64,000 nt of DNA. Source: an uncultured Ardenticatenia bacterium (GTDB lineage: Bacteria; Chloroflexota; Anaerolineae; 4572-78; NAK82). The notes under the pieces are model-generated. The model worked only from the letters and a program-made list of their open reading frames with translations. It searched no databases and had not been told where the DNA came from. Both the position numbers and the translations under genes were made by a program. Location: NCBI GenBank assembly GCA_937127125.1, contig CAKZLO010000033.1, forward strand, positions 1-64,000. The letters are read 5' to 3'. Positions 5,001 to 50,319 of this stretch are shown piece by piece (within the stretch, counting starts at the first letter, position 1; each line of letters opens with the position of its first letter).

Positions 5001-5047
5001 GTCGGCGATGTTCGCGGCATAGCAGGTATCCCATAGGAGGAACGAGG

Positions 5048-5101: not shown

Positions 5102-5826
5102 ATGAAATCGAACCGCAAATCTTAACGGAAGAGGATGGGCGCATTTCGGTGCTCTTGCTGGATGACCACCAGCTCTCCCTGGATGGGATGTTAGCAATCC
5201 TGGAAGCGCGCGCTGCCGAGTTCTGTGTGGTTGGGGCGGTAAGATCTGTCAAGGAAGCACTACAGATAGTAGCAAATTCCCTTCCCGATGTTGTGGTGCT
5301 CGACTTGAAAGTGTTGTACGAACCGGCGTCTCCAGAAGAGAGGATTGAGGCGGGTCTGGATGCAATTCGGGAGATCCGCCGGCTGAGTCCTTCCACCAAG
5401 GTTGTGGTGGTCAGCGCCTACCGTCAGCCGGAACATATCGCGCAGGCGCTGCAAGCTGGCGCGGTGGGCTATGTGTATAAGGGGCGTTCCAGCGAAGAGG
5501 TGCTGGAAAGTTTACGACGTGCCCACGTCGGCCAGGTTTTCTTCCACCCAGAGATCGCCCAAAAGCTCCTCGAGACGCTGCAGAGACCAGAGTCCTCCGA
5601 AGGGGAAGAACGCGAGAGTGATCCCCTTACTCCACGTGAGCGTGAGGTGCTGCAGCTGATCGCTGAGGGCAAATCCAACCAAGAGATTGCTAATCAGCTG
5701 CAAATCTCTATTGGAACGGTGAAGAAACACGTCACCAACATACTGGACAAAATCCACCTGCGCAGCCGTGTTGAGGCCGCATTGTATTGGCGCACGCAGT
5801 CCCAGATCACTCTGCCTCGCGAGTAG
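5095..5826 (+). CDS. LuxR/NarL-type two-component response regulator
   Basis: A 243-residue DNA-binding regulator. The receiver domain (about residues 16-145) has the acidic pair Asp23-Asp24 (LLLDDHQ), the predicted phosphoacceptor Asp70 (VVVLDLK) and the switch lysine in GYVYKG. The stretch after Asp70 (LYEPASPEERIEAGLDAI) is a few residues longer than in most NarL proteins. The C-terminal LuxR helix-turn-helix (about 178-235) reads LTPREREVLQLIAEGKSNQEIA and then IGTVKKHVTNILDKI. It is almost certainly phosphorylated by the kinase encoded just upstream. Targets are unknown; the small unit at 5949-6197 directly downstream is one candidate. Confidence 0.95.
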   Translation: MVDEIEPQILTEEDGRISVLLLDDHQLSLDGMLAILEARAAEFCVVGAVRSVKEALQIVANSLPDVVVLDLKVLYEPASPEERIEAGLDAIREIRRLSPSTKVVVVSAYRQPEHIAQALQAGAVGYVYKGRSSEEVLESLRRAHVGQVFFHPEIAQKLLETLQRPESSEGEERESDPLTPREREVLQLIAEGKSNQEIANQLQISIGTVKKHVTNILDKIHLRSRVEAALYWRTQSQITLPRE

Positions 5827-6339: not shown

Positions 6340-7827
6340 TCACAGGCGTGCTATGCTGGAGCTCTGTGTAGCGTTGTCGGCCACCGCGTCGGTCAGCCGC
6401 GCTGCTGCCACCCCGAGTCCCATCGTCACCCAGAACAGGGTGACCAGATGGATGAAGTTGATGTTGAAGAAGAAATGGTCAAAGACTCCGCTGACCAGCG
6501 CTCCGGCGAGCGCCGCGATGCAGGCCAGCAGATACCCCTCACTTTCCTCATTGCGCGGCACACGCCATAGCGCACGGAACGTCACAACAAAATAGACAGA
6601 CACAACCACCAGGAAGAGGAACAAACCTACCAAACCCACCTGTTCCGCAATGAGCAGGTATAGGCTGGATACTCCGATATAGAGGTCTATATCGGGGGTG
6701 CCCGTAAAGCCTACGCCCAGCAGAGGATAGCGGCTGATCAGTATGAGTGCATCCTTGTACTCGCCAAAGCGCATCTGAGTGGCCAGGTCCTCTCCCCGCA
6801 ACCCCTCCCACAGGCGCGTGACATACACCTGGGTCACTGGCAGAACGAGGAACAATATGGCCAGCGCGACCAACACTAGCAGCAGCTTGCGGTAGCGCAT
6901 TATCCCTGCCAACGTGAGCGCCAGCACCAACCCAACCATTGAGCCGCGTGAGAAAGTCAGCAAAAGACAGAGCGCACTGAGGCCTGCACAAGGCGCCAGC
7001 CACACGCGCGGCAACACAGGCCGTGCAGCGAAGAGCTGCACCACTGCCACAGCAGTCACGATAACAAGCAATCCCCCCAGCGCGTTGGGGTCAATGGAGG
7101 TGCCAATAGCACGCATGGGTTGTGTGGGATCGTCCTCTACGTAGCGTAGAATGCCTGCGCCAGCGGGGTAGTTAAACACAGCTAGCTTGGAGAGCAGGCC
7201 CACTGTCCACCCTTCTGGCAGCACATAGAACAGCACACCCAATGTACCGCTGAGGCCGCCGGCCATGACGAACACTCTCATAACGCGGCGTAGCGCACCT
7301 ATGTCGGGCACCTGATACAATACGACGAAGAAGAGTATGACGGCCAGCAGAACCTCAACAAAACGACGCAATACAGTTACGCTGAGAGGCGAATGGGCCA
7401 GACCAGCCACGAAGGTGATCAGCGTCCACAAGAGGAAGGCTAGGATGGGGATGCCCAGCGCGGAAACTTCGAGGCCGTGGCGTGTACGCGTCACCACGCG
7501 CACCAAGGATGTAGCAAACACAGCCAGCAGTGCCAGGTCGATGAACGTCGGACGGAAGCCGATGTCCAGCGGCACAGCGGCATAAGGCAGCAGGCAGATA
7601 AGGGCCACCAGCAATGGCAATCCCCATTGGTACGAGCGCAGCAGCAGTGCTGCAACACTTAGCACGCCCAACAAACCCAGTGCTGGCAGTGCGCCCAGTC
7701 CTCCGATCAACGCGCCCACCGCCACGCCTGTCAGCAACGCCACACCCAGCGCGCTGGCAATGGCCAGGCGGGTGTCACTGGACGCCAGCCATGTGCGCAG
7801 GTGATCGATGGCTGAGTAATGGGTCAT
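6340..7827 (-). CDS. O-antigen ligase/polymerase-like membrane protein (Wzy_C type)
   Basis: A 495-residue polytopic protein with about 12 hydrophobic segments. Residues 290-310 contain LTFSRGSMVGL, typical of the O-antigen ligase/polymerase (WaaL/Wzy_C) superfamily, and the following large extracytoplasmic loop contains the usual R-G-E and YPLLGVGF elements. Such proteins join or polymerise undecaprenyl-linked glycans at the outer face of the membrane. The start at 7827 has a strong ribosome site (AGAGGAAGG). It is the last gene of the nine-gene glycan operon, 84 bp after the preceding gene. The acceptor and glycan are unknown. Confidence 0.88.
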   Translation of the reverse strand: MTHYSAIDHLRTWLASSDTRLAIASALGVALLTGVAVGALIGGLGALPALGLLGVLSVAALLLRSYQWGLPLLVALICLLPYAAVPLDIGFRPTFIDLALLAVFATSLVRVVTRTRHGLEVSALGIPILAFLLWTLITFVAGLAHSPLSVTVLRRFVEVLLAVILFFVVLYQVPDIGALRRVMRVFVMAGGLSGTLGVLFYVLPEGWTVGLLSKLAVFNYPAGAGILRYVEDDPTQPMRAIGTSIDPNALGGLLVIVTAVAVVQLFAARPVLPRVWLAPCAGLSALCLLLTFSRGSMVGLVLALTLAGIMRYRKLLLVLVALAILFLVLPVTQVYVTRLWEGLRGEDLATQMRFGEYKDALILISRYPLLGVGFTGTPDIDLYIGVSSLYLLIAEQVGLVGLFLFLVVVSVYFVVTFRALWRVPRNEESEGYLLACIAALAGALVSGVFDHFFFNINFIHLVTLFWVTMGLGVAAARLTDAVADNATQSSSIARL

Positions 7828-7911
7828 TCCTTCCTCTTACTCGGGCAAAAGCAGCCTGTTGTGTTCAATTACCAACCCATGCCAGATGTAGTCCATGCCC
7901 GCCTCACGGGC

Positions 7912-10509
7912 TCACCGACTTTCCCTGCTCGGGTGAAAACGCCCCCCGACGCGCTGCAATGCAACTTCAACGAAGTCCCTGTCTTGTCCCAGCGGCTGCA
8001 GCCGCCGGCCGGTAGGCAGATCATATAACCCGACGCGCAGCGCATAACACCCATCCGGCATACCGGGCGGGAGATGGAGCCAGTAGGTGTCAATCACCAT
8101 CTCCTCTGGGCTCCACAGGGAGGTCGGATAGTGTCCTCGAAGCGGCATATTATCCTGTTGTGCCACCAGATGACCCTGTGCATCGAGCAGGTGGATGAAG
8201 ACAGTATAGTCATGTGCAATGACGCCAGTGGCTTGCCAGTGCAGCACCACCTGCACCAGACCTTCGTCTGTGGTATGTGCGTCCACGCCGCGCAAGAAGA
8301 TATTGTCCTCAAAGGGCACATTTAGCGCAAGCGCGGGCGCAGGAGGTGGCTGAGTGCGTACCCACAGTTTACCCAAAGTGATACTGTCTGTCGGAATGGC
8401 ACCCCCAGCCATCTGAACATCCAGGCGCTGCCCGGAAGCGCGATGATATAGGCCCACCTCGAAACGGTAGACGCCATCGGGAGCATCCGACGGTAGATCA
8501 AAGGGGTGCAAGTCCTGCACAACCAAGCCGGGCGGCCAGAAATGGCTATGCAGCAAGATGGAACTCCCCAGCGATTTATTGATCTGGGCGATGCGCTGCT
8601 CGCTCGACAGGTTGGACAGATGAATGAAGAGATCGTAATCCCCATCGATCGGACGGACACTTTGCCACCTCAACCAGAGAGAAACACGTTCTCCCGGCTT
8701 TGCCTGCTCCGGGTCGACACGAAACCCTAATAGGAGCAGGTCGTCGCCGAAGCTGGCCCTGAGCGGTTGCACCACCTCTGTGCTTTCGGGCAGGATCCGT
8801 GCACCAGGGTCAAGCGAGTACACATCCGCCACGGCCTCTCCGCTACTGGTGAGAGTCAGCAATGGCTTGCCGACACGCACAGCCTCGGTCAGTGCGGTTG
8901 CTTGTGTCGGAGCCAGCTGAGGCAGCAGGTGAGCCGTCCCCGTGCCATCCGCATGCGGTTCAAGCAGTACCCAGGCAGAGGGAACGCTTCCGTCGCGCGG
9001 CATGATGCAGACGACTGCCGGTTCGTCAGCTTCGGAGAAGCGATGGGCAGCGATTCGGGCAGCTACATCTTCAAACGAGAGGCTGTCCAGGATTGGATAA
9101 CGCGCCTGAAGCAAGAAACGCGTTGCCGGGTTGGTGTAGAAGCGGTTTGGGGTTAGCGTCAGCTGTCCGGTGCGACCGTTCAGGTAGTTGGCCACGACGC
9201 GTGCCTGATTACGCGGCGGGTCAATATTGTTTGCCCAGACGGAGAAGTAATTATATGCACTGCTGATGCCGCCTGCGGCGAGGAGAACAGATGCCGGCAA
9301 CAGCGCCAGCCACGTGTGCTCAGACGCCATGCGCTCCCAGGTGCGGCCGCTGAAACGCTGGATACACCAGCGGGTCAGCGCAGCCAGTCCAACCGCTGAA
9401 ATCAGCTGTAGTGCTGGCCAGGCCAGGATGCCCCGCAGGATGGTGGTGACAGCATCCCAGTCCTGGCGTGAAAGCAACACGGGCAGGAGCCCCACCATCC
9501 ACCAGGCGATGAGCCACCAGGCAGCCGGACGAGGAGACCGGCGTACACAAACCAGGAGGCCGATCAAGAGCCCCAGGCCACTTATGGCATTAAGGCTGGG
9601 CCAGTTTCCTACCCAGCTGCCTGCCCCGAAGTGGATAATCAACAGTCGGGAGAGATTCTCCCCCAGCGTCGCCGGCAAAGCGCTGTCCATAGGCAGGCTG
9701 ACGGCTGCCAGGCGGCTGCTAAAAGCATGCGGGTTGCGCACAAAGTAAAGCAGCAATGGGATGCAGACAGCGAATATGACACTCAGGAGAACTGCCAGCC
9801 CCCACCCCATTTGTCCGCGATGGCTACGCTGCCGTACTAGCCACATGCCAACGAGCAGAAACACCAAAAGCAACACCAGGCGTGCCGCGGTGTAGGTATA
9901 GAGAGTCAGGCCAAGCAGAAAACCAGCCATGCTCCACCAGAACAAGGCTGCTTTGCCAGACGAGGCAAGTGTTGTGCGGTATGCACGCCACAGGCACCAT
10001 ATGCCGGCAAGGAGTATGGGGGGCAAGGCAATGGCGCGCAACGCTTGACGGCTGAAGTATATGTGCCAGTAGCATACCGCCATCCCGGTCGCAGCCAGCA
10101 ATCCAATGTATTTTGGTGGGAACGTCTCTGCTCGTTCTACTCCTCTGGACGCCAGCTGGCGAGCGACAGCGGCCAAGAGGGGAATGGTCAACGTGCCCAT
10201 GACCACTGAGCCGAAGCGCAATGCAAAGGCGGAAATGCCCCAGATGTGCAGAACAACGCCCTGAAAGTACAGGAAAAGTGTTTCGCGGCCGAAGTTGTTC
10301 TGCAGAAACGGGGTCAGCCAGCCCCAGCGCACCAGCTGAAGCGCGTCCAGTCCATCAATGCTTTCGTCCAGGCTGAGCGCTTGCGGCAGGTCGTCTAGCC
10401 GCATGACACGCAATGCAAAGGTCACCCACACCACGAACACCATGAGCCAGAAGGGCAGCCTATCCGAGGCTGTTTTACCAGACTGGTTGGGGACACTACC
10501 TAATTTCAC
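7912..10509 (-). CDS. GT39/PMT-like membrane glycosyltransferase with two C-terminal beta-sandwich modules
   Basis: The start is set at GTG 10509, whose GTGA overlaps the TGA of the previous gene; a longer in-frame extension would add 71 Cys/Arg-rich residues lying in that gene. The product is 865 residues. The N-terminal half is polytopic (about residues 15-420), with the acidic pair LSLDESIDGLDAL in the first outer loop as in PMT/ArnT glycosyltransferases that use polyprenyl-phosphate sugars. After a mixed region come two copies (about 588-695 and 735-835) of the extracellular module shared across this operon, recognisable from DYTVFIHLLD, YPTSLW and GLYDLPTGRRL. Donor and acceptor are unknown. 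Confidence 0.85.
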   Translation of the reverse strand: MKLGSVPNQSGKTASDRLPFWLMVFVVWVTFALRVMRLDDLPQALSLDESIDGLDALQLVRWGWLTPFLQNNFGRETLFLYFQGVVLHIWGISAFALRFGSVVMGTLTIPLLAAVARQLASRGVERAETFPPKYIGLLAATGMAVCYWHIYFSRQALRAIALPPILLAGIWCLWRAYRTTLASSGKAALFWWSMAGFLLGLTLYTYTAARLVLLLVFLLVGMWLVRQRSHRGQMGWGLAVLLSVIFAVCIPLLLYFVRNPHAFSSRLAAVSLPMDSALPATLGENLSRLLIIHFGAGSWVGNWPSLNAISGLGLLIGLLVCVRRSPRPAAWWLIAWWMVGLLPVLLSRQDWDAVTTILRGILAWPALQLISAVGLAALTRWCIQRFSGRTWERMASEHTWLALLPASVLLAAGGISSAYNYFSVWANNIDPPRNQARVVANYLNGRTGQLTLTPNRFYTNPATRFLLQARYPILDSLSFEDVAARIAAHRFSEADEPAVVCIMPRDGSVPSAWVLLEPHADGTGTAHLLPQLAPTQATALTEAVRVGKPLLTLTSSGEAVADVYSLDPGARILPESTEVVQPLRASFGDDLLLLGFRVDPEQAKPGERVSLWLRWQSVRPIDGDYDLFIHLSNLSSEQRIAQINKSLGSSILLHSHFWPPGLVVQDLHPFDLPSDAPDGVYRFEVGLYHRASGQRLDVQMAGGAIPTDSITLGKLWVRTQPPPAPALALNVPFEDNIFLRGVDAHTTDEGLVQVVLHWQATGVIAHDYTVFIHLLDAQGHLVAQQDNMPLRGHYPTSLWSPEEMVIDTYWLHLPPGMPDGCYALRVGLYDLPTGRRLQPLGQDRDFVEVALQRVGGRFHPSRESR

Positions 10510-13500
10510 TTTTGCGTCTCGTTCGTTGTTGTGTTGGGCAGGTGCAGTGTGGTCAATTGGATCGCATCTCTTGGCGACCCCGGCGCGGTTGCACTTGTCA
10601 GAGCCAGACGCTGGCCGCTGGCCGCATCGTAGAGCCCTACCAGGATAGCATATGTTCCCGGAGCAAGGCCAGTCGGCAACGGCACAATCACCTCGTCGCG
10701 AATGATCTCCCCGACATCCCACAGCAAGGTGGGATAGGCACCATCCGCCGGCGGACGATCCATCTGTGTCACGATTTCGGTGCTGCCTGCCCTCGTCAGG
10801 TGAACGAAAGTTGTATAGTCAATGGGGAGCGGGGCATCGCAACGCCAGTAGAGCACCACCTTCGCCGCCTTTGGCTCTACGGATAAATCGTAACCGAGAA
10901 GGGTGACCAGCCCACCCAGCGCGTCCGCACGCAGGTGCGCCGGAGATGGCTGGCTGACGGTCACACCCGGCGGCGCGCTGCCTACCTTGACCGTGCTCAA
11001 GACGACACTGGTGGCATCCAGCACGTTGCCTTCCGCGTCAACCAATTGCAGTGGAAAGATCTGCCCTGCCAACACCTGATACAGTCCGACGTCCAGGCGG
11101 TAGATGCCAGGTGGTGCCTCCGCGTCCACGGGCAGCAGATAGGGATCGGATACAACTTCACCAGCTGCCCAGAGGGCAGTGCTGTAATAATCCCGCGGAA
11201 CACGGTCGCGGCCGCCCCATTGTCGCAGGTCGGCGCCTAGCAGATGGTTAAACACAATGTAGTGACTCTGTATGTCTCGCTCAGCCTGCCAGTAGAGCGT
11301 CACAGGCAATGCGCCGCCTGGCTGCACTCTGCGCTCAGGGAGGTCATAACCCAGCAAAGTGATTTCACCGCCGAAGCGAGCATTCACTACGTGCTGAATA
11401 GGTGGCACAACAAAGTTGCGCTGACGCAAACGCACTTCTAATACTGGATCGCTGATGAAGATCTGATCCCCCTTGCACACCTGCACACGGTAGAGGCCGG
11501 CTGGCCAGCGTGCACCGACTATGAAGGTGAAGATTCTGCCGGTTTGGAGCACAGCTTTCTGTTCAGATCCACCCGGTCCCACCAAGGTCACGGCATAATC
11601 CCCCTCGCTGGTTCGCTGGTCATCCAAGCTGATCTGGATGGTGGCCCGGTAGCGAAAGAGAGGCAATGGGTTGTCCACCCGCCCAGATTGCCAGACGTCA
11701 AATGTGCCGCTGTGTCCATCAGACAGCTGCCAAGCGTGCCTGCCCGTGGCAACCGGCACGTCTGGCAGCGACACAATAGTCAGGCAAGAGCTCGCACTCG
11801 GGGACGGTTCCGGGTGATCGGTCATAGGCGGAGGCAACAGGCGTAGACACAGGCGGTATGAGCCTGCGCGCAAACCCGTCGACACCAGCCATATATTGTC
11901 GCGCACCACGTCACCCGGTTGCCAGGCACGCGTGGGATAACGCCCATCCACTGGATGTCCCAGCCACCGACTGGCGACGGCTCCATTCTCATCCACCAGG
12001 AACAGGTCGGTCAGGAGATCCTCAGACGAATCACCTCTGCTGCGCCACGTAAGGGTCACTGGCAACGCGCCGAATTTGTTCAGTGGATGCACTTCATAAC
12101 CGAGCAGCTCAATTGCCTCGCCGAAGGAGAGATGCACCGGGTTGACCACCTGCTCTGCAGCCTTGGCGGTCGTGCGTACTGGAAGAGGTTCAGGAAAGGC
12201 GGGCAACATCAGCCCGTAAAAATTGATCACATTCATGCCGAGCAGCAAGCTGGCCGCGCCAAGCGGGGCAAGCTGGCGCTTCTGTGTCCTGAACCACGTG
12301 GCCAGACCCTCTGCCAACAACAAACCGATCGACACGGCGGCGGGAAACAGGATGTGCCTTCCCTGCGCTGTCTCTATCACGTTGCCAGTCAGAAAAAAAC
12401 GCAGCAGAGGAAACGGCAACAGTAGAAGTATTTGTAGTATTAACAGTACAGGTGGATACATGGGCGCTGCCTGCACAGCCTTGCCCACTGAAACGCACTC
12501 ACAAACCGGCTCAGGTGTAGCGTAACTGCCCCAGCGGACGGCCCGGCGCAACAGCCCAGCGAGCGCCAGGATAGTCAGACAGGCGGCAGCAAAGCACAGG
12601 GCGATGCCAACCGGATGATCGAGTGGACTGCTCGGCAGCCAGAATGAGACAAACATCTGGATCAGCCAGTCAAGCCAGTTGAGAGGCGCCTGGACCACCC
12701 CGCTCGATCCCGTCAGAACGCCGCCGCTGAGGAAAGCGGCCACTTGCTGCAGACTGGCATCCGCACGTGTGCCAGCCATAAAGGGCTTGAGCAATCCGGC
12801 CCACCACCCCAGCTGATGCACTTCGTTGAAGTGCCACACCACGAAAATGAACCACCACGCAGCCGCGATGACATATGCTGCCGTAAACACAGCGAACCGA
12901 CCCAATGCCACCCCACCGCTTAATCTGCGACGTCGCACTGCCTGGATGAGCAGCGCTACCATCACTAGTGGGAACAATACCACGCTATATTTGGTGGTAA
13001 CCGCCATGCCCAGGCACACGCCTGCCAGAACGTAGAGCCTTACCCGCGCCGGCTGTTGCCAGGCCAGCACCAGACACCACGTGAAGAGAGCAGATAGCAA
13101 GCCGAGTAGGTTATCATCGTTCACAGCAGCCGCGATGAAGGTGAACTGCCCCCCCATCGCTACCAGAGCGGCCGCGCCGACAGCGATTGCTTCGTCATAG
13201 GGTCGTGCTGTGCGCACTACGAGATATATCACCACGATGGTGGCTGCACTGAACACCAGCGAGGCCAGTCTGGCCAGATGCCACGCCAGGACGATGCCCT
13301 GAAACGGGAATGCCTCATCCTCGGTGTGCACCAGGGCGAAGGGTGGCAGTCCATCGGCGATGAGCAGGCGCCGCGGGTCGAGGCTGTTTTGTTTCAGATT
13401 CGGCAGTGCGGCGTAGTCCACCCAACGCAGCGCTATCCCAAGCAGCATGTGGTACAGCATAGGCGAGTCCGACTTGTAGCCGGCCGCTTCGCGTTCTGCA

Positions 13501-13670
13501 TAACTGCGCGGCAGGTGGCCACGCTCGCTGATGAAACGGATCAGCTGCATATGCGCCGCCTCGTCGGGCGCCTCGCCTAGCAGATTCAGCCAGCTAAGGC
13601 CCCCCGTCATCGCAACGAAGACAGCCAGCACAACGACCAAAGTCGGAACACGCCGCGTCAGCGATTTCAT
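10506..13670 (-). CDS. GT39/PMT-like membrane glycosyltransferase with about three beta-sandwich modules
   Basis: 1054 residues; ATG at 13670 overlaps the previous stop by 4 bp. The membrane half (about 1-480) starts with a hydrophobic helix followed by GEAPDEAAHMQLI, carrying the acidic motif of the first outer loop. The outer half carries module copies at about residues 515-610, 765-865 and 920-1020, with LLGYDL, VTLYWQA, FVHLTRAG and VGLYDAASGQRL signatures, plus a more diverged beta-rich stretch at about 640-740. It is predicted to act at the outer face of the cytoplasmic membrane. Its close relative is the next upstream gene (13667-16993); the two look like an ancient tandem duplication. 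Confidence 0.85.
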   Translation of the reverse strand: MKSLTRRVPTLVVVLAVFVAMTGGLSWLNLLGEAPDEAAHMQLIRFISERGHLPRSYAEREAAGYKSDSPMLYHMLLGIALRWVDYAALPNLKQNSLDPRRLLIADGLPPFALVHTEDEAFPFQGIVLAWHLARLASLVFSAATIVVIYLVVRTARPYDEAIAVGAAALVAMGGQFTFIAAAVNDDNLLGLLSALFTWCLVLAWQQPARVRLYVLAGVCLGMAVTTKYSVVLFPLVMVALLIQAVRRRRLSGGVALGRFAVFTAAYVIAAAWWFIFVVWHFNEVHQLGWWAGLLKPFMAGTRADASLQQVAAFLSGGVLTGSSGVVQAPLNWLDWLIQMFVSFWLPSSPLDHPVGIALCFAAACLTILALAGLLRRAVRWGSYATPEPVCECVSVGKAVQAAPMYPPVLLILQILLLLPFPLLRFFLTGNVIETAQGRHILFPAAVSIGLLLAEGLATWFRTQKRQLAPLGAASLLLGMNVINFYGLMLPAFPEPLPVRTTAKAAEQVVNPVHLSFGEAIELLGYEVHPLNKFGALPVTLTWRSRGDSSEDLLTDLFLVDENGAVASRWLGHPVDGRYPTRAWQPGDVVRDNIWLVSTGLRAGSYRLCLRLLPPPMTDHPEPSPSASSCLTIVSLPDVPVATGRHAWQLSDGHSGTFDVWQSGRVDNPLPLFRYRATIQISLDDQRTSEGDYAVTLVGPGGSEQKAVLQTGRIFTFIVGARWPAGLYRVQVCKGDQIFISDPVLEVRLRQRNFVVPPIQHVVNARFGGEITLLGYDLPERRVQPGGALPVTLYWQAERDIQSHYIVFNHLLGADLRQWGGRDRVPRDYYSTALWAAGEVVSDPYLLPVDAEAPPGIYRLDVGLYQVLAGQIFPLQLVDAEGNVLDATSVVLSTVKVGSAPPGVTVSQPSPAHLRADALGGLVTLLGYDLSVEPKAAKVVLYWRCDAPLPIDYTTFVHLTRAGSTEIVTQMDRPPADGAYPTLLWDVGEIIRDEVIVPLPTGLAPGTYAILVGLYDAASGQRLALTSATAPGSPRDAIQLTTLHLPNTTTNETQK

Positions 13671-16600
13671 TTCACCCGCAACCTGACGACAGGGATGGCA
13701 TCATCCGCCAGAGGCGTACCATCCGTCGCCACGGCGGACAGCCGCTGGCCACTTGCTAGATGATACATGCCGACCAGCAGGCGATACGTACCGGGGGGAG
13801 CATCCGACCGGAGGGAGATGACGTAGCGATCGACTATCTGCTGCCCCACTTCCCATTGTGAGGTCGGGTAGCGCCCTCCTTGGGGCTGATTATCCTGCTG
13901 CCCCCATACCAGTCCGTCCGGCCCGAGTAACTGGGTGAAAACGGTGTAATCGTCCCTAGGAGGTCGGATGGCTTGCCAGTAGAGGGTCAAATGGAGTATC
14001 CCGCCGGGCGCCAGTGTCCTATCAGCTGCGGGCCACAGGTCGTAGCCGAGCAGCTGGATCTGGTCGCCCAGCGTCACTCGAAGCGGATGAGAGGGCATGC
14101 CATCCTCAGCCACATCCCTCACGCGCACCTGCCCCAGATACAGGCGATCGGTGGGCGTCTGCAGTGAAGTGTTGGTGAGAGGCAGCCAGGTAAGGGTGCT
14201 GTCCCTCTCGTCGGTTTGGTATGCGTAGAGGCCAAGCTGGATGGTATGCAGACCGGGCAGCGCGTCCAAATACACAGGGAGCTGATAGGTCTCTGAGACG
14301 TATTCACCAGGCGCCCACAACACGTTGGGATAGTGGCCGCCTAGCGACCATTCCAGACGCCCCCCTACGCGCGCCAAGTTGTCCAGCAGGTAGAGGGCGA
14401 TCGTATAGGGTTGGCTCATTGTGCGGCGTGACCGCCAGTGCGCCGTGATGGTGATGCTTTCTCCAGGCCAGCGAGCGGAACGTTCCAACTCATAGCCCAC
14501 CAGCTCCATACATGGTTCCACTGTCTCTTCACCGCAACCAACGATGGTTGCTTCCGGAGATGTTGTCAGAGATGCCAGCGGCTCAAAATTGCGCCAGCGG
14601 GTTGCGACTCGCACGAGCAGCCCTGTGTCCACCTCGCTCGCCGTTTGCAGCATGTATTCACCCGGCTGCACCGCTGCATCCGCGATGAAGCTGTAAGCTA
14701 TGAGCGCCTGGCCCTCCGGACCGCGACACACTGAGTGCAGAGCCACAGGTTGCCATCTCCGCGCCGGCTCCTGGCGGCTTGCCAGCCACACCGAGGGCTG
14801 CTCTCCTGGTGCACTGGCGCCTGCCGGTTGCTGGACAAAGACAGTAAATCCCTGTCGCAATTGGTGCACATCCAGGGTCTCCTGCTGCAGCGCACCCTGC
14901 GCCGTCCAAACCGCGATGCGCGGCCTGGTTGCAATTGCCTGCGCCGGCGGCTTCAGAGAGAGGCGGCTGAGCACCACCGGCTCAGGGTGGGGCAGTCTGG
15001 CATCGATCAGGGTGGCTGCCGACTCCGGCTGGACAGGGAGCATCTCCAGACTCAATGTGTAAATGCTCTCCGGCAGGCAGGGGGACGTAGGCAGAATCAT
15101 CGCATCGCGAATCAGATAACCAGTCTCCCAGGCGCGTACGGGGTAGCGTCCATCCAGCGGGTGGGCATACGTGCAGAGCACCTTTTCCTCTTGGGCATTC
15201 TGCAGGCACAGATGCACCAGGTAATCGCGAGTCTGAGGGGCACTGGCATACCAGTAGAGGGTGACCGGGATGCCTGCTCCCGCCTCAAAAGAAGGGATCT
15301 GCGACCCTGATGGCGACTCCGACGATGAGGGCAAATCATACCCTACGAGCTTCAGGCCGGGTGCAAAGGAAGCTTTGAGCCGATGCCCGATAGCAGCTTC
15401 CTTGGGGTTGATTGTCCGGACGGGTAGATAGGGCAGATAAACCGGTAGAATGATCGCTGGGAGGGCAACCAGGCTCAGTGCCAGCAGAGCGGTTGGCAAC
15501 GAAAAGGCACACAGAGCGCTCCATGCTCGATCCCTTGTTTCTCCTGTGCTAGCTAATGTGCCGGAGCGGTCCAGACACCACCGACGAACCGAGTTCGCCA
15601 TATCACGAGCAACATGGGGCAAGCCACTCAGCCCGTACACCAGCAAACAGGCGAGCGCAGTCAGCGCCGGATAGAGGTGGCGTCCCTGTGCTGTCTCGCG
15701 CGCCGGTCGCGATGTCTGGCGCATAACCATAATGCCCAAGTAAATCAGCACATGCAGCACCAATATGATAATGTCCCAGCGCCAAGTGGAAGGGTGTGAC
15801 AGTCGAGTGTGCCCATTGGCCTCTCTCCCGCTAGCGCGCCCGTGTTTGATTAGCTGCCCGAGCAGGCCGACTGTCGCCAGCAGCGCCCAGACGCCCAGCG
15901 TCGTATAGACCCATGCCGGCGCAAAGACGTGCAGCCAGCCGTAAGTGAGCCAGAATGAGCGAAAAAGCAGGTTTGCCCAATCTCCCCAGCCAAACGCTTG
16001 AGCGGATGCAGCACCCGCTGGCGTCTCAAACAGATGGCTTAAACCGGTGGTCAGCACCGGATCCCCGAGCGGAGCAATTAGTCCGCGTACCCAACCCAGT
16101 TCGGCCACCTGATTGAAGCGCACCAGTAGAAAAGCGAACCACCAGCCAGCCGTCAGCAGGAAGGCGAGCATCATCCACGCCCAGCGGCGCAGCCAGGCCA
16201 GCCAGACATGGCGCCAAGACGGGGAACGCACTGCATCACGCCAGGCAAGCACGATGCATAGCAATGTTGCTTCCGGCAGCAACACCAGGCTGTGGTACTT
16301 GGTGATCGCCGCCAGACCCATGAGGAGACCCAGTAACAGGAAGGCTCGAGGGTGGTGGGCACCTTGCGCGATGCGCACCATCATATAGACGGCGAAAGCG
16401 GCCAGTGGCACGACCAGCGCATCGTCGTTCACCACAGCGCTATGGATAAGGAAACGTGGCAGGAAGGCTACGCATGCAGCTGCCGCGACAGCGAGGCTGC
16501 GACGATGCGGAAACAAGCTCAGCCCGGTAAGATAGGCCGCCACCACCACGGTGGCACCCAGCGGCACCGAGACCAGCCGCGCCAGATGCCACGCCAGCAC

Positions 16601-16993: not shown

Positions 16994-17016
16994 CGTGGTG
17001 TCATAGCGTGCCTCGC

Positions 17017-18996: not shown

Positions 18997-19040
18997 TTTT
19001 GTCTTAAGCTGCCAACCCGATGTGGTCCGACATGGCGACG

Positions 19041-21644: not shown

Positions 21645-21645
21645 C

Positions 21646-24003
21646 CTAATGCCTCCGCAGCCGAGACAACAGCCCTGTTCCTGTGAGCGCCAGCAAGCTC
21701 AGCACGCTGATGATAGCTCCTGCCGTAAAGCTGAACGGGCGAAACTCCATTGCGACCCGATGCCGACCGGCCGGCACCACCACGCCGCGCAGGACATAAT
21801 CGACAGGCATGATATCCACGGGTTGACCGTCCAGATAAGCCTGCCAGCCCGGATAATAGATTTCGCTCACCACCAGCAGCCCGTCAGCAGGAGTAACCAC
21901 GTCCAGTGTGATGCTTCCCGGGGTACGCTTTTGCAGGGTGACCTCGCCGGCCTGTCCGCCTTCGGGTGGATGCAGTGCGAGTGCGCTGCCGGGCGGCACC
22001 AACGCCACCTGCATCGGATCGAAGGTCACTTCGTCCAAACGCGCCAGTGCCTCCTCATCAGCAATCTCTTCCACGTGGTAAACCAGCCAGGCGCGCGGTG
22101 CAGGTGACTTCAACCGATGCACATAGGTGGTGTCTTTGCCGGCCGGTTCCTGATAGATGATTTGCGAGGGGGCATACAACTCCTGACGCCAGGTGATCAC
22201 ATAATGCACGTTCAGCAGCTGCCATACACGTTCCATACGGAGCGTTCGGTACAAGGCGTCATAACGTGCCAGGCGTAACGGGCTGGCACCCCATGTATCT
22301 TCTATTTCGTATGGCACCCCATAATTCTCGTAGAGGCGGTACTCGTTGTACACGCGAAACACCTCGCCAGGCCGCGCGTCGGTGCGGATTGCCTGCACGG
22401 GGGGTGGAGTGCTCGTCTGCGCCTCAGGTAATGCCGGGTGCAGGTTGGTCTGCCAATTTGCCGTGAAGAGGTCCAGCACCACCAGCGCTCCCAAGCCGAT
22501 CCGGCCCCATGCTGCGTGAACAGGTTGCGGCGCGGCGCACGTGCGCAACAATCCCCATACCAGGCTGAGCAGAATGGTCAGCCAGACGCTCTGCGCTAGG
22601 AGCTTTCGGAAGGGATGCTCATCCTGCCAGCCGGTGGCATTGTGTCCGATGAAGAACAAGAACACCAGAGCAATGCTTCCCATTAGCAGCCAGCGCACGG
22701 TGAGATCAAACCGTGTGCGGTGTGGCTCTCCCTGCTCCTCGCGCTGCAGGTAGCGGCTGAAGCCATAACCGGCCAGCGCGGCCAATGCCAGGCTGAACAG
22801 AAAGGCAAGGCGTTCCTGGCCGCGGAACAGGCCGAATCCGGGGATGAACAAATAGAATGGCGCGTACAGGAAGGTTTCACCGCCGAAGGAAAGGAACAAC
22901 GCCCCCACCGCCAGGACACCCCAGAAGATCACCTCGCGTCGTTGGCGATCTGCGCTCAGGGCGACCCACCCGGCGAACAAGAGCGGTAGGATACCCACAT
23001 AGAGCGGCGAATAGTAGCTCACCGAACCGGGCAACAGCAGCTGCAGCAGGTCGTAAAGCGGGAAGCCGCCAGCCATCTTATCGTAACTGCCAGCCGAACG
23101 CACCGACAGGCGCATATATTCCCACGCTGGCATCCATGCCACTGCGGCCAGCCCTAATCCTGCTGCTACTATAAACGCCCATGCCACGCCGACGCGCAGC
23201 ATGCCCCTACGACGAGATCTCTCGTCACGGGTGCCGCCTGAGTAGGCGATTGCGATGAAGGCTAGGTAGCAGGTGAAGGTGTAGCCAACCAGCATAGCAC
23301 TCTGTGGGTGACCGGCCAGCAAGGCAAGCCCCCACGCAGCGCCGGCCCACGCCAGAAACTGCCAGCGCAGTGTGCTGCGCAACGTAGGCTGGTCGGCCGT
23401 GCGATCAACTAGGGCTATGTCACTAAGGTACAACATGAGCGGCAGCCAGATGTCAGTCTCCAGCACTGCCAGCTGCTGACTCGGGTAGCCTGTAAGGTAT
23501 CCGCCAAAGGTGAAGATTAGCGCACTCAGCAGCGCTGCATCGCGGCGGCCAGTCAATCGGCGCATCAGCAGGTAGGTGAACATCCCCGCCAGCCAGAAAT
23601 GGGCGATCGCTTCCATCTCGAGTGCGAAGAGAGGAAAATTGGGCATACCCGCCAACACCAGAGTGAGCAGACTCGGCGGGTAGAGCACAGCACTTTGCAC
23701 ATCCGCCCAGAAGGGGGCGCCAGCGTAGGTGTAGGGATTCCAAAGGGGCAGACGTCCGGCAGCCAGTTCGCGTGCCTCCAAGGTGGCAAAGGCCCAAAAT
23801 TGCTTGGCAAAGTCGCCGGGTGGAAAGCTGGCACGGTCGGCCAGATTGGGGGTCAGGATACGCCAGAAGAAAAGCAGCACCAGGGCAGCTAGAACCAGTG
23901 CGCTGACACCGTCGCGCCACGACCAGCGTTCCTCAAAATTGCCACCGTGGCGCGTCTGCGCCTTTTCCACGGTACGAGATGCATCAGTTGAGAGATTCAC
24001 CAT
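21646..24003 (-). CDS. YfhO-like polytopic membrane protein
   Basis: 785 residues with about 12 hydrophobic segments and a beta-rich C-terminal outer domain before a last helix. Features match the YfhO family: PGDFAKQFWAFATLEARELAAGRLPLWNPY near the N-terminus and GLLVVSEIYYPGWQAYLDGQ followed by GRHRVAMEFRP before the last helix. Known YfhO-type proteins take part in glycosylation of cell-wall or lipid glycans; the reaction here is unknown. It is the only large glycosyltransferase-like member of the operon without the shared beta-sandwich module. ATG 24003 lies in ATGGTGA, overlapping the previous stop. Confidence 0.87.
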   Translation of the reverse strand: MVNLSTDASRTVEKAQTRHGGNFEERWSWRDGVSALVLAALVLLFFWRILTPNLADRASFPPGDFAKQFWAFATLEARELAAGRLPLWNPYTYAGAPFWADVQSAVLYPPSLLTLVLAGMPNFPLFALEMEAIAHFWLAGMFTYLLMRRLTGRRDAALLSALIFTFGGYLTGYPSQQLAVLETDIWLPLMLYLSDIALVDRTADQPTLRSTLRWQFLAWAGAAWGLALLAGHPQSAMLVGYTFTCYLAFIAIAYSGGTRDERSRRRGMLRVGVAWAFIVAAGLGLAAVAWMPAWEYMRLSVRSAGSYDKMAGGFPLYDLLQLLLPGSVSYYSPLYVGILPLLFAGWVALSADRQRREVIFWGVLAVGALFLSFGGETFLYAPFYLFIPGFGLFRGQERLAFLFSLALAALAGYGFSRYLQREEQGEPHRTRFDLTVRWLLMGSIALVFLFFIGHNATGWQDEHPFRKLLAQSVWLTILLSLVWGLLRTCAAPQPVHAAWGRIGLGALVVLDLFTANWQTNLHPALPEAQTSTPPPVQAIRTDARPGEVFRVYNEYRLYENYGVPYEIEDTWGASPLRLARYDALYRTLRMERVWQLLNVHYVITWRQELYAPSQIIYQEPAGKDTTYVHRLKSPAPRAWLVYHVEEIADEEALARLDEVTFDPMQVALVPPGSALALHPPEGGQAGEVTLQKRTPGSITLDVVTPADGLLVVSEIYYPGWQAYLDGQPVDIMPVDYVLRGVVVPAGRHRVAMEFRPFSFTAGAIISVLSLLALTGTGLLSRLRRH

Positions 24004-26789
24004 AGGCGCACCGTGCCCAGATCAATGAAATCACCACCCGCCGAAACCGGCAGCCGTTGGCCGCTCGACGCGTCGTACATACCGGCGATCACGCGGTACG
24101 ATCCAGGAGGCAGATCGGTCGGCAGACGCAGGCGGTAGGGATCGCTCAGAAACTCACCGCGCAGCCATGTGCTGGTCGGGGCACGCCCCGCGAGCGGTTG
24201 TAGGTCTTGCTGTGCCACCACACGCCAATCCATATTCAGCAGCTGGACGAAAACAGTGTAGTTGCTGTCTACCTCGGCCAAAGATTGCCAGTGTAACGTC
24301 ACGCCCAGCTCGTCGCCAAGCCGAGGTTCCCGGCTTGTCAGCTCATACCCCACCAGTCGGAAGGCAGGTGGATTGCTCAGCACGACATCGGCCGTTTCGG
24401 CGACACGTGGCGGCTCGAAGCGGCGTGCGCGCTGCTGGACAGTAATTGGCGACAGGGAGACGCGCTCCCCGAGACTCTCGCCATAGCTCAGCAACGCGAT
24501 GTGCAATGTGAGTCGTGTGGCAGCGAGGCGTGGACTGGTGCTCAGACGATAAATCATCCGGCGCACCTGTCCTGGTTGCCATCCCGTGGGGTCGCCCACC
24601 AGTTCGGCAAGTGAACGTGTGGTTTCGTATCGATCGGGATCTGCGCCGCCGTCCAATGTTAGCTGCATCGTTATGTCCGTCAGACGAGATGTGTCGGCAC
24701 CGGCAGCCAGCTGCCAGTACAGCTGCATCCATACATCTTCGCCCGGCTGTAGTTCGGTCGGCAGCGCATACCCCACCAGGGTCAAGGCGCTCATCTCCCT
24801 GCGGATGGGATTGGGCAGCTGCAGAGAACGCAACGGCACGATAGCGCGCGCTGGAGCCACATCCAGTGCTGCAATGGGCTGCGGCGTCCCCAATTGCTGG
24901 CCACTCCTCGGCTCATATACAACCAGCTGCACTTGATAACGCCCCGGCGGAGCGTCTACAGGGAGCCACAGCGCGCGCCGGTCGACGACGAGCTGATCAG
25001 GTTGCCAGGTGGATGTTGCACCCGCGACGGCCAGAGGCGGCCAGTCTGCTTGAGCATAGCGCTCTCCTCGGAGGTCGGTCAGACGCAATGAAACCTGATA
25101 ATCGTGGGCGAGGTGGGCGGTAGCGCGCCATGTCAGCGCGAATGGGGCCACATCACCGGCTGCTATCTGCTGTGCCGGCACCGCCGCGCGCAATAACTCC
25201 AGCCCTCTCCCCGGCGATTCCTCGAATACGGTGTGGGCAGGTCGCTCGGCCATTGTGGAGGCCGTTGTAGTGGCATAGAGCGCCAGGCGTTGGCGTCCCA
25301 ACCAGCTCTGCCAGACGGGATAGGCGTTGGATGCCAACCATCCTTCCAGGACACTGTCGATGGGGACGCCATAGGGGGTATACCATATGCGACGATGTTG
25401 TGTTGCAATCTCGGCCAGCCGCTGCACCGCTTTGTCCGCCGGAGGCGGCGGGGTGTTAAAGTCCACATAAACGGGAAGATCCCCCTTATAATAATAGTTG
25501 AAGACCATTTCACTGCCGTCGCCGGTGATGATGATGGCGTCGTCGGGTGAGGCATAGTCCTCGATCATATGCGCAATGGTGCGCCAGTCCGGCTTGGCAT
25601 AGGCCGGATCGAAATAATGGTGGTAGAGTACCCAGCCACTGATGCTGAGCAGCCCCAGAAGCAGCAATGCCCCCACTGAGACGGCGAGGAAACGAGCCCA
25701 TCTGAATGACGCCCGCCCAAAGATACTGTGCACACCATGGCTCACGCCCAGCACACCCATTGCCACGACCAACAGATGAGCGACCTGCACCGGGATCAGG
25801 TAGCGTTCCAGATAGACCGGCGTGCGCAGCTCGCCGTAGAGCCAGGCGACCAGGTTGGGCATCAGCGTATAGACTGCCAGGAATGCCAACGTATAGCGGC
25901 CACGCCAATTGTGCCAGCTGCGCCAACCGGCATACACCAAGCCGCACCAGAACAGCACTGCAAATGCCAGACTGAGCCAAAATGACGTCGGCGGCGGCAC
26001 CAGCTCTCCCACGCTATACGCCACGATGCCGCGCAGGTATGTTTCCCACAGAGCTGGTTGGGGGATCCAGTTGTAGTACTCCTTGAGCGCGCCCAGACCA
26101 AAGTAGAGCCACAAACCGAACAACCCCAGTGTGATGAGCATCAGGCCGCCCCAGCGCAGATAAAACCGCCACTGGCGGAACATCCCCGTCGGTCGAAGCA
26201 GTCGACTCACCACCAAAAAGAGCCCCTGCACGCCGATCAGGATCAGGGCATGGTAATGGGTCAGGAGCGCCCACGCGGTGCCCAGCACGTAGAGCAATTG
26301 CCAGCGCCACTGCCATCGGCCCTGCCACAGCACCACAAAGCTCCACATGCTCACAAGTCCGGCCGCTGTGAGCATAGTATAGTTGCGAGCATCCTGAGAG
26401 TGCCAGATCTGATAGGGTGCTACTGCAATTAACAGCGCTGCGATGAGGCCCAAGCGCACACTGCCGAGCGCTCTTCCCAGCCGCATCATCAGTGGCACGC
26501 TCAGCACGCCACACAGCAGGGAGAGGAAACGCATTGCATATTCACTGTTGTCAAGCAGTGCACTCCAGTACAGAGTCAGGAAGTGATATAGCGGTGGCAC
26601 CACGCGCGTCGTCTGGAGTGTGTGCCACAATTGTGGCGGGGTAAGCGCAGCGTAGTGGAGTGTCCAGCCTTCGTCGATCCAGTAGCTTTGGGCGTCCAGG
26701 CGGTAAGCACGGAGCACGAAGGCCAGCAATGTGATGAGCAGCGTGGCCATCGCGGCAAAGTGGTATCGAAAGGTATGTTCACGGTTCAT
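23997..26789 (-). CDS. GT39/PMT-like membrane glycosyltransferase with three beta-sandwich modules
   Basis: 930 residues; ATGA overlap with the previous gene at 26786-26789. The first outer loop has SYWIDEGWTLHYA, a typical PMT_2 acidic motif, followed by PPLYHFLTLYWS; about eleven hydrophobic segments to residue 400. The outer part carries module-like regions at about 536-628, 670-770 (diverged, with YWQLAAGADTS) and 813-907 (LVGYELTSREP, VTLHWQSL, YTVFVQLLNMDW, AGMYDASSGQRLPVS). Predicted to transfer a sugar from a polyprenyl phosphate at the outer face of the membrane. Confidence 0.86.
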   Translation of the reverse strand: MNREHTFRYHFAAMATLLITLLAFVLRAYRLDAQSYWIDEGWTLHYAALTPPQLWHTLQTTRVVPPLYHFLTLYWSALLDNSEYAMRFLSLLCGVLSVPLMMRLGRALGSVRLGLIAALLIAVAPYQIWHSQDARNYTMLTAAGLVSMWSFVVLWQGRWQWRWQLLYVLGTAWALLTHYHALILIGVQGLFLVVSRLLRPTGMFRQWRFYLRWGGLMLITLGLFGLWLYFGLGALKEYYNWIPQPALWETYLRGIVAYSVGELVPPPTSFWLSLAFAVLFWCGLVYAGWRSWHNWRGRYTLAFLAVYTLMPNLVAWLYGELRTPVYLERYLIPVQVAHLLVVAMGVLGVSHGVHSIFGRASFRWARFLAVSVGALLLLGLLSISGWVLYHHYFDPAYAKPDWRTIAHMIEDYASPDDAIIITGDGSEMVFNYYYKGDLPVYVDFNTPPPPADKAVQRLAEIATQHRRIWYTPYGVPIDSVLEGWLASNAYPVWQSWLGRQRLALYATTTASTMAERPAHTVFEESPGRGLELLRAAVPAQQIAAGDVAPFALTWRATAHLAHDYQVSLRLTDLRGERYAQADWPPLAVAGATSTWQPDQLVVDRRALWLPVDAPPGRYQVQLVVYEPRSGQQLGTPQPIAALDVAPARAIVPLRSLQLPNPIRREMSALTLVGYALPTELQPGEDVWMQLYWQLAAGADTSRLTDITMQLTLDGGADPDRYETTRSLAELVGDPTGWQPGQVRRMIYRLSTSPRLAATRLTLHIALLSYGESLGERVSLSPITVQQRARRFEPPRVAETADVVLSNPPAFRLVGYELTSREPRLGDELGVTLHWQSLAEVDSNYTVFVQLLNMDWRVVAQQDLQPLAGRAPTSTWLRGEFLSDPYRLRLPTDLPPGSYRVIAGMYDASSGQRLPVSAGGDFIDLGTVRLW

Positions 26790-29134
26790 CGAGCGATTGC
26801 CTCAACCAGGACGTTTCCTAATGCGATCACATCTTTGTCTGTGTCGGCGAGTCTCAACCGCTCTCCGCTGACCGGGTTGACCACACCGACTATGAGGCGG
26901 TAGCTGTCCGCCGCCGTAGCAGGCGGCAAAACGAGTGCCCGACGATCGTGTATCACTTCATCCACTTTCCACGTGGTGGTGGGAACGTATCCTCCCACTG
27001 GCGGCCCATCATACTGTGCCACGGGAAGGCCATCTCTGCCCAGCAGCTGCACGAAGATGTTATAATCGGCATCCGGGGGCTTCAGAGCACGCCAGTGCAT
27101 TTCTATGGGCATCGCTTCACCGGCCACAACGGAGACCGGTACGCGCACCGCATCCAGCTGGAACATACCTCCCAAGGCAAGCTGTACCGTGATGGTCAAC
27201 GGGGGAGTCGCGGTCGCATAACGCACCAGGCGTGCGTCCTCGATCCATTCGTCGCTCGCCTTGAATGTATGGCGCGCCAGCCACCATTCCACCGGGTTAT
27301 CTGCGGCGGCCGGCGGGCAGCCGACGGTGACCAGCCAGACGTTGCGTCCCGCCACTGCTTGCTGCAACAGTGGCATAGCGGTCTCCGCCAGGGGTGTGCT
27401 CTGGCGCGCCATGCCGATCAACGGGATGCGCGCTTTGAAGCGGTTCATCGCCATGTGGTAATGATAGGGTGCCACGGTAATGATGGACTCATCAGGGTGT
27501 GCCTGCGCTGCGGCCTGTTCCAGTGCTGCCACGTACGATGGAACTTGCCTTCCGCCAAACTGCCGATCGGTCACGTAATAGCGACTCAACAATCCCAGTG
27601 GGATGAGCAATGTGGCAATGCTGGCGATCACCAAGCTGCTCCGCGACCAACGTCCCAGCCAGGCACTTACCATATACCCTGCTGCGATGACCAGCAACAG
27701 CAGGCTCAATCCCAGCGCACGTCTGTCCAATCCCCATGGTTGCCACCAGGCTATATCCGAGTTTTCCAGTGACCATGCGCGCAGCTGCCCCAGTGGTTGT
27801 GCGTAACGGAAGTCCACCAGGGCTGCTGTACGTTCTAGGAAAAACTCCCCGCCGAACCTGGCTTGTAGCTCGCTCAGATAGACCCATGGGTTGATCGCCA
27901 CGCCCAGCAGCTGAATAGCTAGCGAGAGGGCTGCCAACACACCCAGGAGTATAGTCACGATCAGATTGCGCTGACATGCGCGCTCGACGAGTGGCGCCAG
28001 GCAAATGCTCAACAGAGGCACCAGCGGGACCAGGAAACGTGATCCCCAGCTTAGACCTTCACCCGAGCTCCACGTGGCGAAGAGGAGCAAGGTGATTCCA
28101 CTGATGCCTGCCACCAGCAGCACAGCCCCCCGATGCCGTGGCCACAGCCAGATCATCCCAGGCAAGCTGAGAAGCAGCACAGGCGAATAGACGAACAACC
28201 CGCGTAATGGGCTGAACAGCAGCTTGTATAGCCCTGTCAGAATGTCGGGCGAAAAGATGGTGAGATCGTAGCCTGTCTGCAGCGGATCACCACTGCGCAA
28301 TACGTTGTAGATGAGCAACAACACCACAGGAGGCATCATGCCACCCAAGAAGTGCAACAGCGGCAGCAGACGGTGGAACGACCTTTGCACCTGTCCCGTG
28401 AGACGATCGTGAGCGAGCGCACCATCTCGCACAGCTATACCGATCAAGTACAGTGCCCAGACAGGCGCCACAAAAAGGTTATTGACGCGTGTGGTCACGG
28501 CCAGCCCTGCCAAGAAGCCGGCTGATCTCGCTGACCAGATCTCCCTCCCGCTGCGTACCCGCAGCACCAGGAGGGTTGTGCCGAGCAGCAGGAGGCCGCT
28601 CAGGGGTTCGCTGAACAGGTACTTGCTGTACACCCAAGCAATGGTCGCGGTGCCAAAGACGCCGGCAGTGATGAGCGCTACCTTGCGATCAAATGCAAGC
28701 CACCGAACGGTCGTGAACACCAGGCCCCCTGTGCCGGCAGTGACCAGTGCATTGATCAGCGAGGCAGTCTGGAGCATTCCAATGCCAGGGGTGAGCAGGC
28801 CCAAGCCGTACAGCGGTGCCATCACCAGAGAGAACAGCGGCCCCTTTTTTGAGTAAACGTGTCCGTCGATGCCGAAAAAGCCCTGTGCCTCGCGCTGAGA
28901 AGTTGTCCACTGCGTCCAGGCGATCTGATCGGTATGCAGCTGGCCGAATTTGACCAGGTTCTCGGTCACAGCGAACATTGAGACCTCATCCACCGAGTGA
29001 AATCCACCCCGGTAGGAGAGCATGTATAAGGCGAAGAGGCAGAGGCTGAGGCCGAAGGCCAAAACGAGGTCACGACCGGCAGAGCCTTCTGATCGCGTAG
29101 CTGCCGGATGTGCATCAAAATGGGATACGCTCAT
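26786..29134 (-). CDS. GT39/PMT-like membrane glycosyltransferase, first gene of the glycan operon
   Basis: 782 residues. The first outer loop has GGFHSVDEVSMFAVTENLV with the D-E motif, then SKKGPLFSLVMAPLYGLG, typical of a PMT_2 subgroup. About twelve hydrophobic segments run to residue 540. One C-terminal module at about 655-757 (DYNIFVQLLGRDG, YVPTTTW, VGVVNPVSGERL). The ATG at 29134 lies 8 nt after a consensus -10 box and has no ribosome site, so translation probably starts on a leaderless mRNA. All eight following genes are packed with overlaps or short gaps and are probably co-transcribed from here. Confidence 0.85.
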   Translation of the reverse strand: MSVSHFDAHPAATRSEGSAGRDLVLAFGLSLCLFALYMLSYRGGFHSVDEVSMFAVTENLVKFGQLHTDQIAWTQWTTSQREAQGFFGIDGHVYSKKGPLFSLVMAPLYGLGLLTPGIGMLQTASLINALVTAGTGGLVFTTVRWLAFDRKVALITAGVFGTATIAWVYSKYLFSEPLSGLLLLGTTLLVLRVRSGREIWSARSAGFLAGLAVTTRVNNLFVAPVWALYLIGIAVRDGALAHDRLTGQVQRSFHRLLPLLHFLGGMMPPVVLLLIYNVLRSGDPLQTGYDLTIFSPDILTGLYKLLFSPLRGLFVYSPVLLLSLPGMIWLWPRHRGAVLLVAGISGITLLLFATWSSGEGLSWGSRFLVPLVPLLSICLAPLVERACQRNLIVTILLGVLAALSLAIQLLGVAINPWVYLSELQARFGGEFFLERTAALVDFRYAQPLGQLRAWSLENSDIAWWQPWGLDRRALGLSLLLLVIAAGYMVSAWLGRWSRSSLVIASIATLLIPLGLLSRYYVTDRQFGGRQVPSYVAALEQAAAQAHPDESIITVAPYHYHMAMNRFKARIPLIGMARQSTPLAETAMPLLQQAVAGRNVWLVTVGCPPAAADNPVEWWLARHTFKASDEWIEDARLVRYATATPPLTITVQLALGGMFQLDAVRVPVSVVAGEAMPIEMHWRALKPPDADYNIFVQLLGRDGLPVAQYDGPPVGGYVPTTTWKVDEVIHDRRALVLPPATAADSYRLIVGVVNPVSGERLRLADTDKDVIALGNVLVEAIAR

Positions 29135-50289: not shown

Positions 50290-50319
50290 AAGATTATCGG
50301 GAAGCAGGAGAGACAACCT

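Follow-up and report, generated by a model that had tools for sequence, protein, structure and literature searches.

A repeated, predicted beta-sandwich module at the C-termini of GT-C-type membrane transferases in a nine-gene Chloroflexota operon

Gene content of the operon

The DNA considered here (the window) is a stretch of 64,000 nucleotides from an uncultured Ardenticatenia bacterium of the Chloroflexota (assembly GCA_937127125.1, contig CAKZLO010000033.1, positions 1 to 64,000), in which nine minus-strand genes (g1 to g9) fill positions 6340-29134. The genes are tightly packed or overlapping, with 4-base overlaps at g9/g8, g4/g3 and g3/g2 and a 7-base overlap at g8/g7. Seven of them encode membrane proteins related to glycosyltransferases of the C fold (GT-C) that end in one to three copies of a module predicted to form a beta-sandwich, and this module is the subject of the present analysis.

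Matches to the Pfam family PMT_2 above its cut-off mark four of the genes as GT-C transferases: g3 (10506-13670; 6.7e-11) and its paralogue g4 (13667-16993; 3.6e-10), and g5 (17017-18996, with the open reading frame (ORF) open to 19077; 6.5e-10) and its paralogue g8 (23997-26789; 1e-7). The product of g6 (19041-21644) is PMT_2-like, reaching 26.0 bits against a cut-off of 26.1, and that of its paralogue g2 (7912-10509) is GT-C-like with no PMT_2 match. The start of g2 is most likely the GTG at 10509, which overlaps the stop of g3, since the listed start at 10722 falls deep in g3 and the ortholog in a genome of the same genus (G256) has 862 amino acids. g9 (26786-29134) encodes a putative LA_3751/3752-like GT-C glycosyltransferase, for which the matches, to PMT and to the LA_3751/3752 family (NF047440 1.6e-16, under its cut-off), are weak. 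The two remaining genes encode a YfhO-family membrane protein (g7, 21646-24003; YfhO 1.2e-15) and a Wzy_C O-antigen ligase/polymerase-like membrane protein (g1, 6340-7827; Pfam Wzy_C 8e-14). As had been stated in a first-pass annotation of the same DNA, no polyprenyl-sugar synthase or flippase was found among the main ORFs of the window; elsewhere in the genome there is one GtrA-type protein, and a gene of glycosyltransferase family 2 adjoins another module-bearing transferase.

The C-terminal module

A seed hidden Markov model (HMM) built from 11 clear copies finds 15 copies of the module at the C-termini of seven of the nine operon proteins, and gives zero module score for g7 (YfhO) and g1 (Wzy_C). 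This bears out the first-pass annotation, which had described the nine genes, the module motifs and about 15 copies in seven genes, with 1, 3, 0, 2, 1, 3, 3 and 2 copies from g9 to g2. All copies are encoded on the minus strand. Those of g9 (26795-27190, 141 bits) and g5 (17020-17439, 167 bits) are single and terminal, whilst g2 and g6 have two each, a first copy (8356-8763, 149 bits, and 19506-19919, 145 bits, respectively) being followed by a terminal one (7945-8328, 151 bits, and 19044-19466, 159 bits). Three copies are found in g3 and g4, where the first is inner and divergent (11751-12143, 58 bits; 14960-15385, 48 bits) and precedes a second (10980-11387, 157 bits; 14117-14530, 141 bits) and a terminal copy (10536-10937, 144 bits; 13670-14083, 173 bits). 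The three copies of g8 lie at 24837-25223 (80 bits), 24423-24812 and 24000-24386 (terminal, 152 bits). Scores with the seed HMM range from 48 to 173 bits in 14 of the 15 copies, the exception being the middle copy of g8, which is the weakest at 13 bits and rises to 89.5 bits with a later profile of 15 rows.

Four residues (L11, W36, L52 and W77 in the numbering of the terminal g4 copy) are invariant in all 15 aligned copies. The full module comprises about 125-140 residues rather than the roughly 100 first estimated, with a further strand after the motif RLPV (strand 130-137 in the AlphaFold2 model). Copies are arranged head-to-tail with short linkers, mostly of 10-30 residues. Between copies 1 and 2 of g3 (11400-11750) and of g4 (14540-14960) there are about 120-140 extra residues unmatched by the module model, possibly a further beta domain.

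Fold and family relationships

The module has no significant match among Pfam-A and NCBIfam models (the best Pfam model, MalQ_N, reaches 0.004-0.02, under its cut-off), and the Pfam model Wzt_C (PF14524) matches none of the 15 copies at E<=1. A sequence search of the PDB gave nothing significant, RbmA reaching E 0.02, no match was found in plasmid and phage collections, and literature searches covering open-licence papers returned no paper describing the module.

AlphaFold2, run on the 15-row alignment, folds the terminal copy of g4 into a confident beta-sandwich (predicted local distance difference test (pLDDT) 95.5; predicted template modelling score (pTM) 0.87). Comparison of this model with solved structures, using Foldseek and VIA-align, gave as top matches the C-terminal carbohydrate-binding domain (CBD) of Wzt, from an O-antigen ABC transporter (Foldseek 1.6e-5; Z 10.4), and residues 156-271 of RbmA (Z 10.5), which we take to be the second fibronectin type III domain (FnIII-2) of that protein. 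Superposition on the Wzt CBD gives Z 10.4-10.8 and a root-mean-square deviation of 2.8-2.9 over 116-120 aligned residues, which ties with RbmA; a viral structure library yielded weak sandwich matches.

Since many sandwiches score Z 9-10 on the module model, sequence profiles were compared. Alignment by hhalign of 74 module copies from the window's own genome with 16 Wzt_C sequences from Chloroflexota genomes scored 81.8% over 90 columns, with a P-value (1.1e-5) that refers to a single comparison and not to a database search. Terminal copies alone scored 90.0% and inner copies alone 89.6%, whereas controls remained far lower (0.3-1.2% for the beta-sandwich family CARDB, at most 0.6% for 20 column shuffles and 0.6% for the reversed profile). 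BsuPI was dropped as a comparison family, having one match in 41 genomes. These profile comparisons support a remote kinship of the module with Wzt_C, not membership. The first-pass annotation had named a match to a known glycan-binding family as an outcome that would count against its view of the module; a resemblance to Wzt_C does exist, but without a member-level score. The module is a new, uncatalogued and strongly expanded family remotely related to Wzt_C.

Carrier enzymes and membrane topology

A full-length AlphaFold2 model of g5, calculated on a 14-row alignment centred on this protein (pLDDT 87, pTM 0.82), has a membrane part that matches oligosaccharyltransferase (OST; Z 29), protein O-mannosyltransferase (Z 27), ArnT (Z 26), AftD (Z 20) and EmbB/EmbC (Z 14-18), and the model identifies g5 as a predicted GT-C enzyme of the ArnT/OST-like type. 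Its catalytic-type aspartate, D58 in the first extracytoplasmic loop, is nearly invariant in the alignment, and a D or DE motif is visible in g2-g6, g8 and g9. The module follows an extracytoplasmic domain at the extracytoplasmic end of the model, where residues 516-659 match the Wzt domain with Z 10.8.

The module is assigned to the outside because ArnT-like GT-C enzymes have their C-terminus on that side. The same placement follows independently from the layout of a module-bearing serine/threonine kinase described below, in which the kinase domain is followed by one transmembrane segment, two PASTA domains and the module. The earlier description of GT-C membrane transferases that bear a beta-sandwich outside the cell is supported. 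Among the operon transferases four groups can be distinguished, (g2, g6), (g3, g4), (g5, g8) and g9, some of which show weaker similarity to one another. The module is also borne by a DUF2079 protein encoded elsewhere in the genome, and a single type of module is therefore shared by several catalytic lineages.

Distribution in the genome and beyond

In the 3.73 Mb genome (85 contigs, 95% complete), the 15-row profile finds about 73 copies in about 48 proteins overall, about 58 of them outside the operon, and an ORF-based count outside the operon gives 59 copies, distributed over 41 further proteins. Almost all of these 41 have 6-15 hydrophobic segments (called by the Kyte-Doolittle method only) and the module at the extreme C-terminus; PMT_2 matches occur at 46 places in the genome. 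Such tails had at first been regarded as unusual on proteins of this kind, a view that is not supported, given the number of carriers in this genome and the published C-terminal carbohydrate-binding modules (CBMs) on GT-C enzymes. A stand-alone module gene of 169 amino acids without a clear signal sequence (contig C34, L057:2939-3445) sits just upstream of a 993-amino-acid DUF2298/PMT_2 membrane protein, and is possibly a gene remnant.

The module is found in 65 of 151 genomes of the phylum, a common but patchy occurrence in which the copy counts of many of the 65 are to be read as "at least". None of the 12 sampled genomes from two families of the window's own class (f2 and f5) carries it. 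A scan of public genomes was run with three close copies as the query, the diversity of the 15-row alignment being too great for this purpose. It gave 63 loci, almost all of them in Chloroflexota; the others are in three Nanohalarchaeota metagenome-assembled genomes (MAGs), one Acidobacteria, one Chthonomonadales and one unclassified bacterium. In the phylum that contains the Acidobacteria, 22 of 99 genomes carry the module, with 1-3 copies each. The module is, so, a Chloroflexota expansion with sparse relatives elsewhere.

The carriers outside the transferases differ between lineages. The window's own genome encodes a PASTA serine/threonine kinase whose outermost domain is the module (contig C4, L062:1983-3869). 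Of 12 loci examined for this kinase, counting that of the own genome, 11 retain the terminal module, and the layout is conserved across the order; this architecture suggests a glycan-sensing kinase. In the three Nanohalarchaeota MAGs (L167, L170 and L174) the module is found on DUF1616 membrane proteins, copies which may reflect transfer from Chloroflexota or a binning error. In two Armatimonadota-like MAGs it forms the N-terminal domain of secreted hydrolases resembling glycoside hydrolase family 101 (GH101), with weak matches of 34-41 bits. The Armatimonadota-like loci L184, L185 and L194 encode secreted proteins with module-like domains, comprising the two GH101-like hydrolases and one protein with a twin-arginine translocation-type N-terminus. 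Carriers in the Acidobacteria-containing phylum have about 300 amino acids, an N-terminal hydrophobic segment and a nearby cysteine, and are probable lipoproteins, although the strict lipobox pattern is unmatched. The non-Chloroflexota and kinase contexts are all envelope- or glycan-related.

Conservation between genera

Genome G256, of the same genus, has all nine genes in the same order with identical module counts, and in G260, from another genus of the same family, order and counts are identical up to the contig end. Relatives of g4 retain three modules down to 37% identity, whilst in G255 the last g6 module is shortened through a frameshift or assembly. Modules are 61-80% identical to those of the orthologs in G256 and 43-68% in G260, and membrane parts are 65-80% and 33-65% identical, respectively; modules are about as conserved as the catalytic/membrane parts. 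In the four G260 proteins tested, each module best matches the same gene and position in the window's genome. In G260, the catalytic parts of g5 and g6 (L212:7095-11691) are 31-33% identical to their counterparts and far more diverged than the neighbours. Identity nevertheless stays at 52-55% in the module of g5 and in the terminal module of g6, as if catalytic specificity had shifted whilst the module was conserved.

Terminal copies resemble the terminal copies of other proteins (132/136), and in the window's own genome the agreement of terminal and inner labels was reached by 9 of 2000 label shuffles. Copies within one protein were mutual nearest relatives in 0 of 238 cases, in a set which leans to conserved terminal copies from the way the loci were found, and in 1 of 75 in the own-genome set, which does not; both counts disfavour recent tandem duplication of modules.

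Proposed function

The reading we favour, which is probable but with a substantial share of doubt, is that the operon modules are acceptor-glycan-binding units on GT-C enzymes that make a cell-surface glycan. Under this proposal, the extracytoplasmic GT-C enzymes would build or decorate the glycan together with the YfhO-like and Wzy_C-like proteins, presumably using polyprenyl-linked (polyprenyl-phosphate) sugars as donors. The Wzt_C-like/FnIII-like modules outside the membrane would grip the acceptor glycan and so make it locally more concentrated near the active site, in the manner of the CBMs of EmbC, AftD and GT136. The terminal copy, being the most conserved, is probably the main binding unit, and inner copies would be diverged, gene-specific accessory units. 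Counted in favour of this proposal are the fusion of the module to several GT-C groups, to the outer end of the PASTA kinase, to secreted hydrolases and to lipoprotein-like proteins, as well as the gene- and position-specific identity of modules across genera. Glycan binding, already among the functions first suggested, is the one best supported by structure matches, Wzt_C profile kinship and the EmbC and GT136 precedents; we infer it, as we do whatever may be said of the identity of the glycan and the order of action.

A C-terminal extracytoplasmic beta-sandwich after the GT-C part is present, as in CBM-bearing GT-C enzymes, so that the carriers are enzymes of an already known architectural kind. 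The GT136 enzyme ORF12 of Citrobacter youngae O1 is a GT-C protein of about 650 amino acids with a C-terminal, periplasmic, acceptor-binding Ig-like domain of about 150 residues, a CBM (503-652) that binds O-polysaccharide (PMC11127046). The likeness to the operon carriers is one of size and layout; ORF12 is one enzyme with one module and its own synthase and flippase adjacent, whereas the operon has 1-3 modules on many enzymes and no adjacent synthase or flippase partner. The mycobacterial arabinosyltransferases EmbC and AftD are likewise GT-C enzymes with extracytoplasmic C-terminal modules that bind the acceptor, and in EmbC mutations of tryptophans in the acceptor-binding C-terminal domain impair extension of lipoarabinomannan (PMC3044687). 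However, subdomain II of EmbC is a lectin-like CBM, whereas the g5 module matches the Wzt CBD, and the operon carriers, unlike EmbC and AftD, belong to several PMT_2/DUF2079-like groups.

The Wzt CBD, which binds the O-antigen cap (PMC9445017) through contacts including Trp362 and His350, is together with RbmA the closest in fold to the module, with a profile similarity of 82-90%. Wzt_C is nevertheless cytoplasmic and attached to an ATP-binding cassette (ABC) ATPase, whereas the module, which has its own PTxW loop, is outside and on transferases; its carriers are GT-C proteins, kinases, hydrolases and lipoprotein-like proteins, with no ABC ATPase fusion among them. RbmA of Vibrio cholerae, according to PMC5605196, binds Vibrio polysaccharide through FnIII-2, and is similar to the module in fold, with a sequence match that reaches only E 0.02; it is a polysaccharide-binding secreted biofilm matrix protein, unlike the membrane carriers.

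Several points weigh against acceptor binding. NPC2, Spo0M and sandwich domains of glycoside hydrolase family 2 also score Z 9-10 on the module model, and with many non-glycan beta-sandwiches at this level sugar binding does not follow from the fold by itself. The conservation of W36, PPGxY and VGLY may in large part reflect the fold core. Moreover, GT136 did not require its CBM for activity under the assay conditions (PMC11127046), so that even true binding need not be essential.

Were the modules protein-protein docking units joining the operon enzymes in one extracytoplasmic complex, a scaffold of the kind considered in the first-pass annotation, the sharing of one module type by seven of the nine genes of a conserved operon, with gene order and per-gene counts kept between genera, would be readily understood, and FnIII/Ig-like folds often mediate protein contacts. 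This is nonetheless unlikely for a module that has about 41 further carriers outside the operon, among them a kinase and many proteins encoded by single genes, that is found in other phyla on secreted hydrolases and lipoprotein-like carriers without operon partners, and that has polysaccharide binders among its nearest structural matches. A wall-anchoring role would have the modules attach to some general polymer of the wall, either peptidoglycan or a secondary cell-wall polysaccharide, and keep many membrane proteins close to it instead of recognising the acceptor of each enzyme. Such a role would suit the PASTA kinase and its outermost module conserved across the order, PASTA domains being wall-binding sensors. 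The kinases, DUF1616 proteins and lipoprotein-like proteins are carriers too, though most carriers are GT-C-like enzymes that transfer sugars and have as many as three diverged copies per protein, and the gene- and position-specific module sequences suggest differing ligands instead of one; anchoring of this sort seems improbable.

The idea of a ruler, raised in the first-pass annotation, or of passive spacers, by which copy number would set chain length or membrane distance, fits the head-to-tail copies with short linkers and the variation of copy number between genes. It is weakened by per-gene counts that are identical between genera, by modules about as conserved as the catalytic part and by same-protein copies that are not recent duplicates of each other, and we regard it as very improbable. 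Acceptor binding could also be extended to an assembly line, in which each GT-C enzyme would read the product of the previous one via its own Wzt-like modules, ordering sugar addition, and the same module family would serve as the ligand domain of the PASTA kinase, reporting glycan state; this extension is speculative and we give it little weight.

The presence of the module on about 45 membrane transferase-like proteins and on a kinase of the wall-sensing type offers an entry point to the surface glycans of Chloroflexota, which are little known. If the module binds glycans, it would link the reader of the O-antigen cap in the transporter (Wzt_C) with extracytoplasmic transferases, and would represent dozens of gene-specific glycan binders. 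With a curated model of the family, many membrane proteins of the PMT_2 type could be given new annotations.

Flanking regions of the window

Convergent to the downstream end of the operon, positions 2109-5826 of the window hold a large GAF/HATPase sensor kinase and a LuxR-type response regulator. Further away, positions 49387-63770 form a sugar-catabolism-like region with three xylose-isomerase-like TIM barrels, UPF0261, a phosphoenolpyruvate (PEP) hydrolase-like protein, a class II aldolase and an ABC importer.

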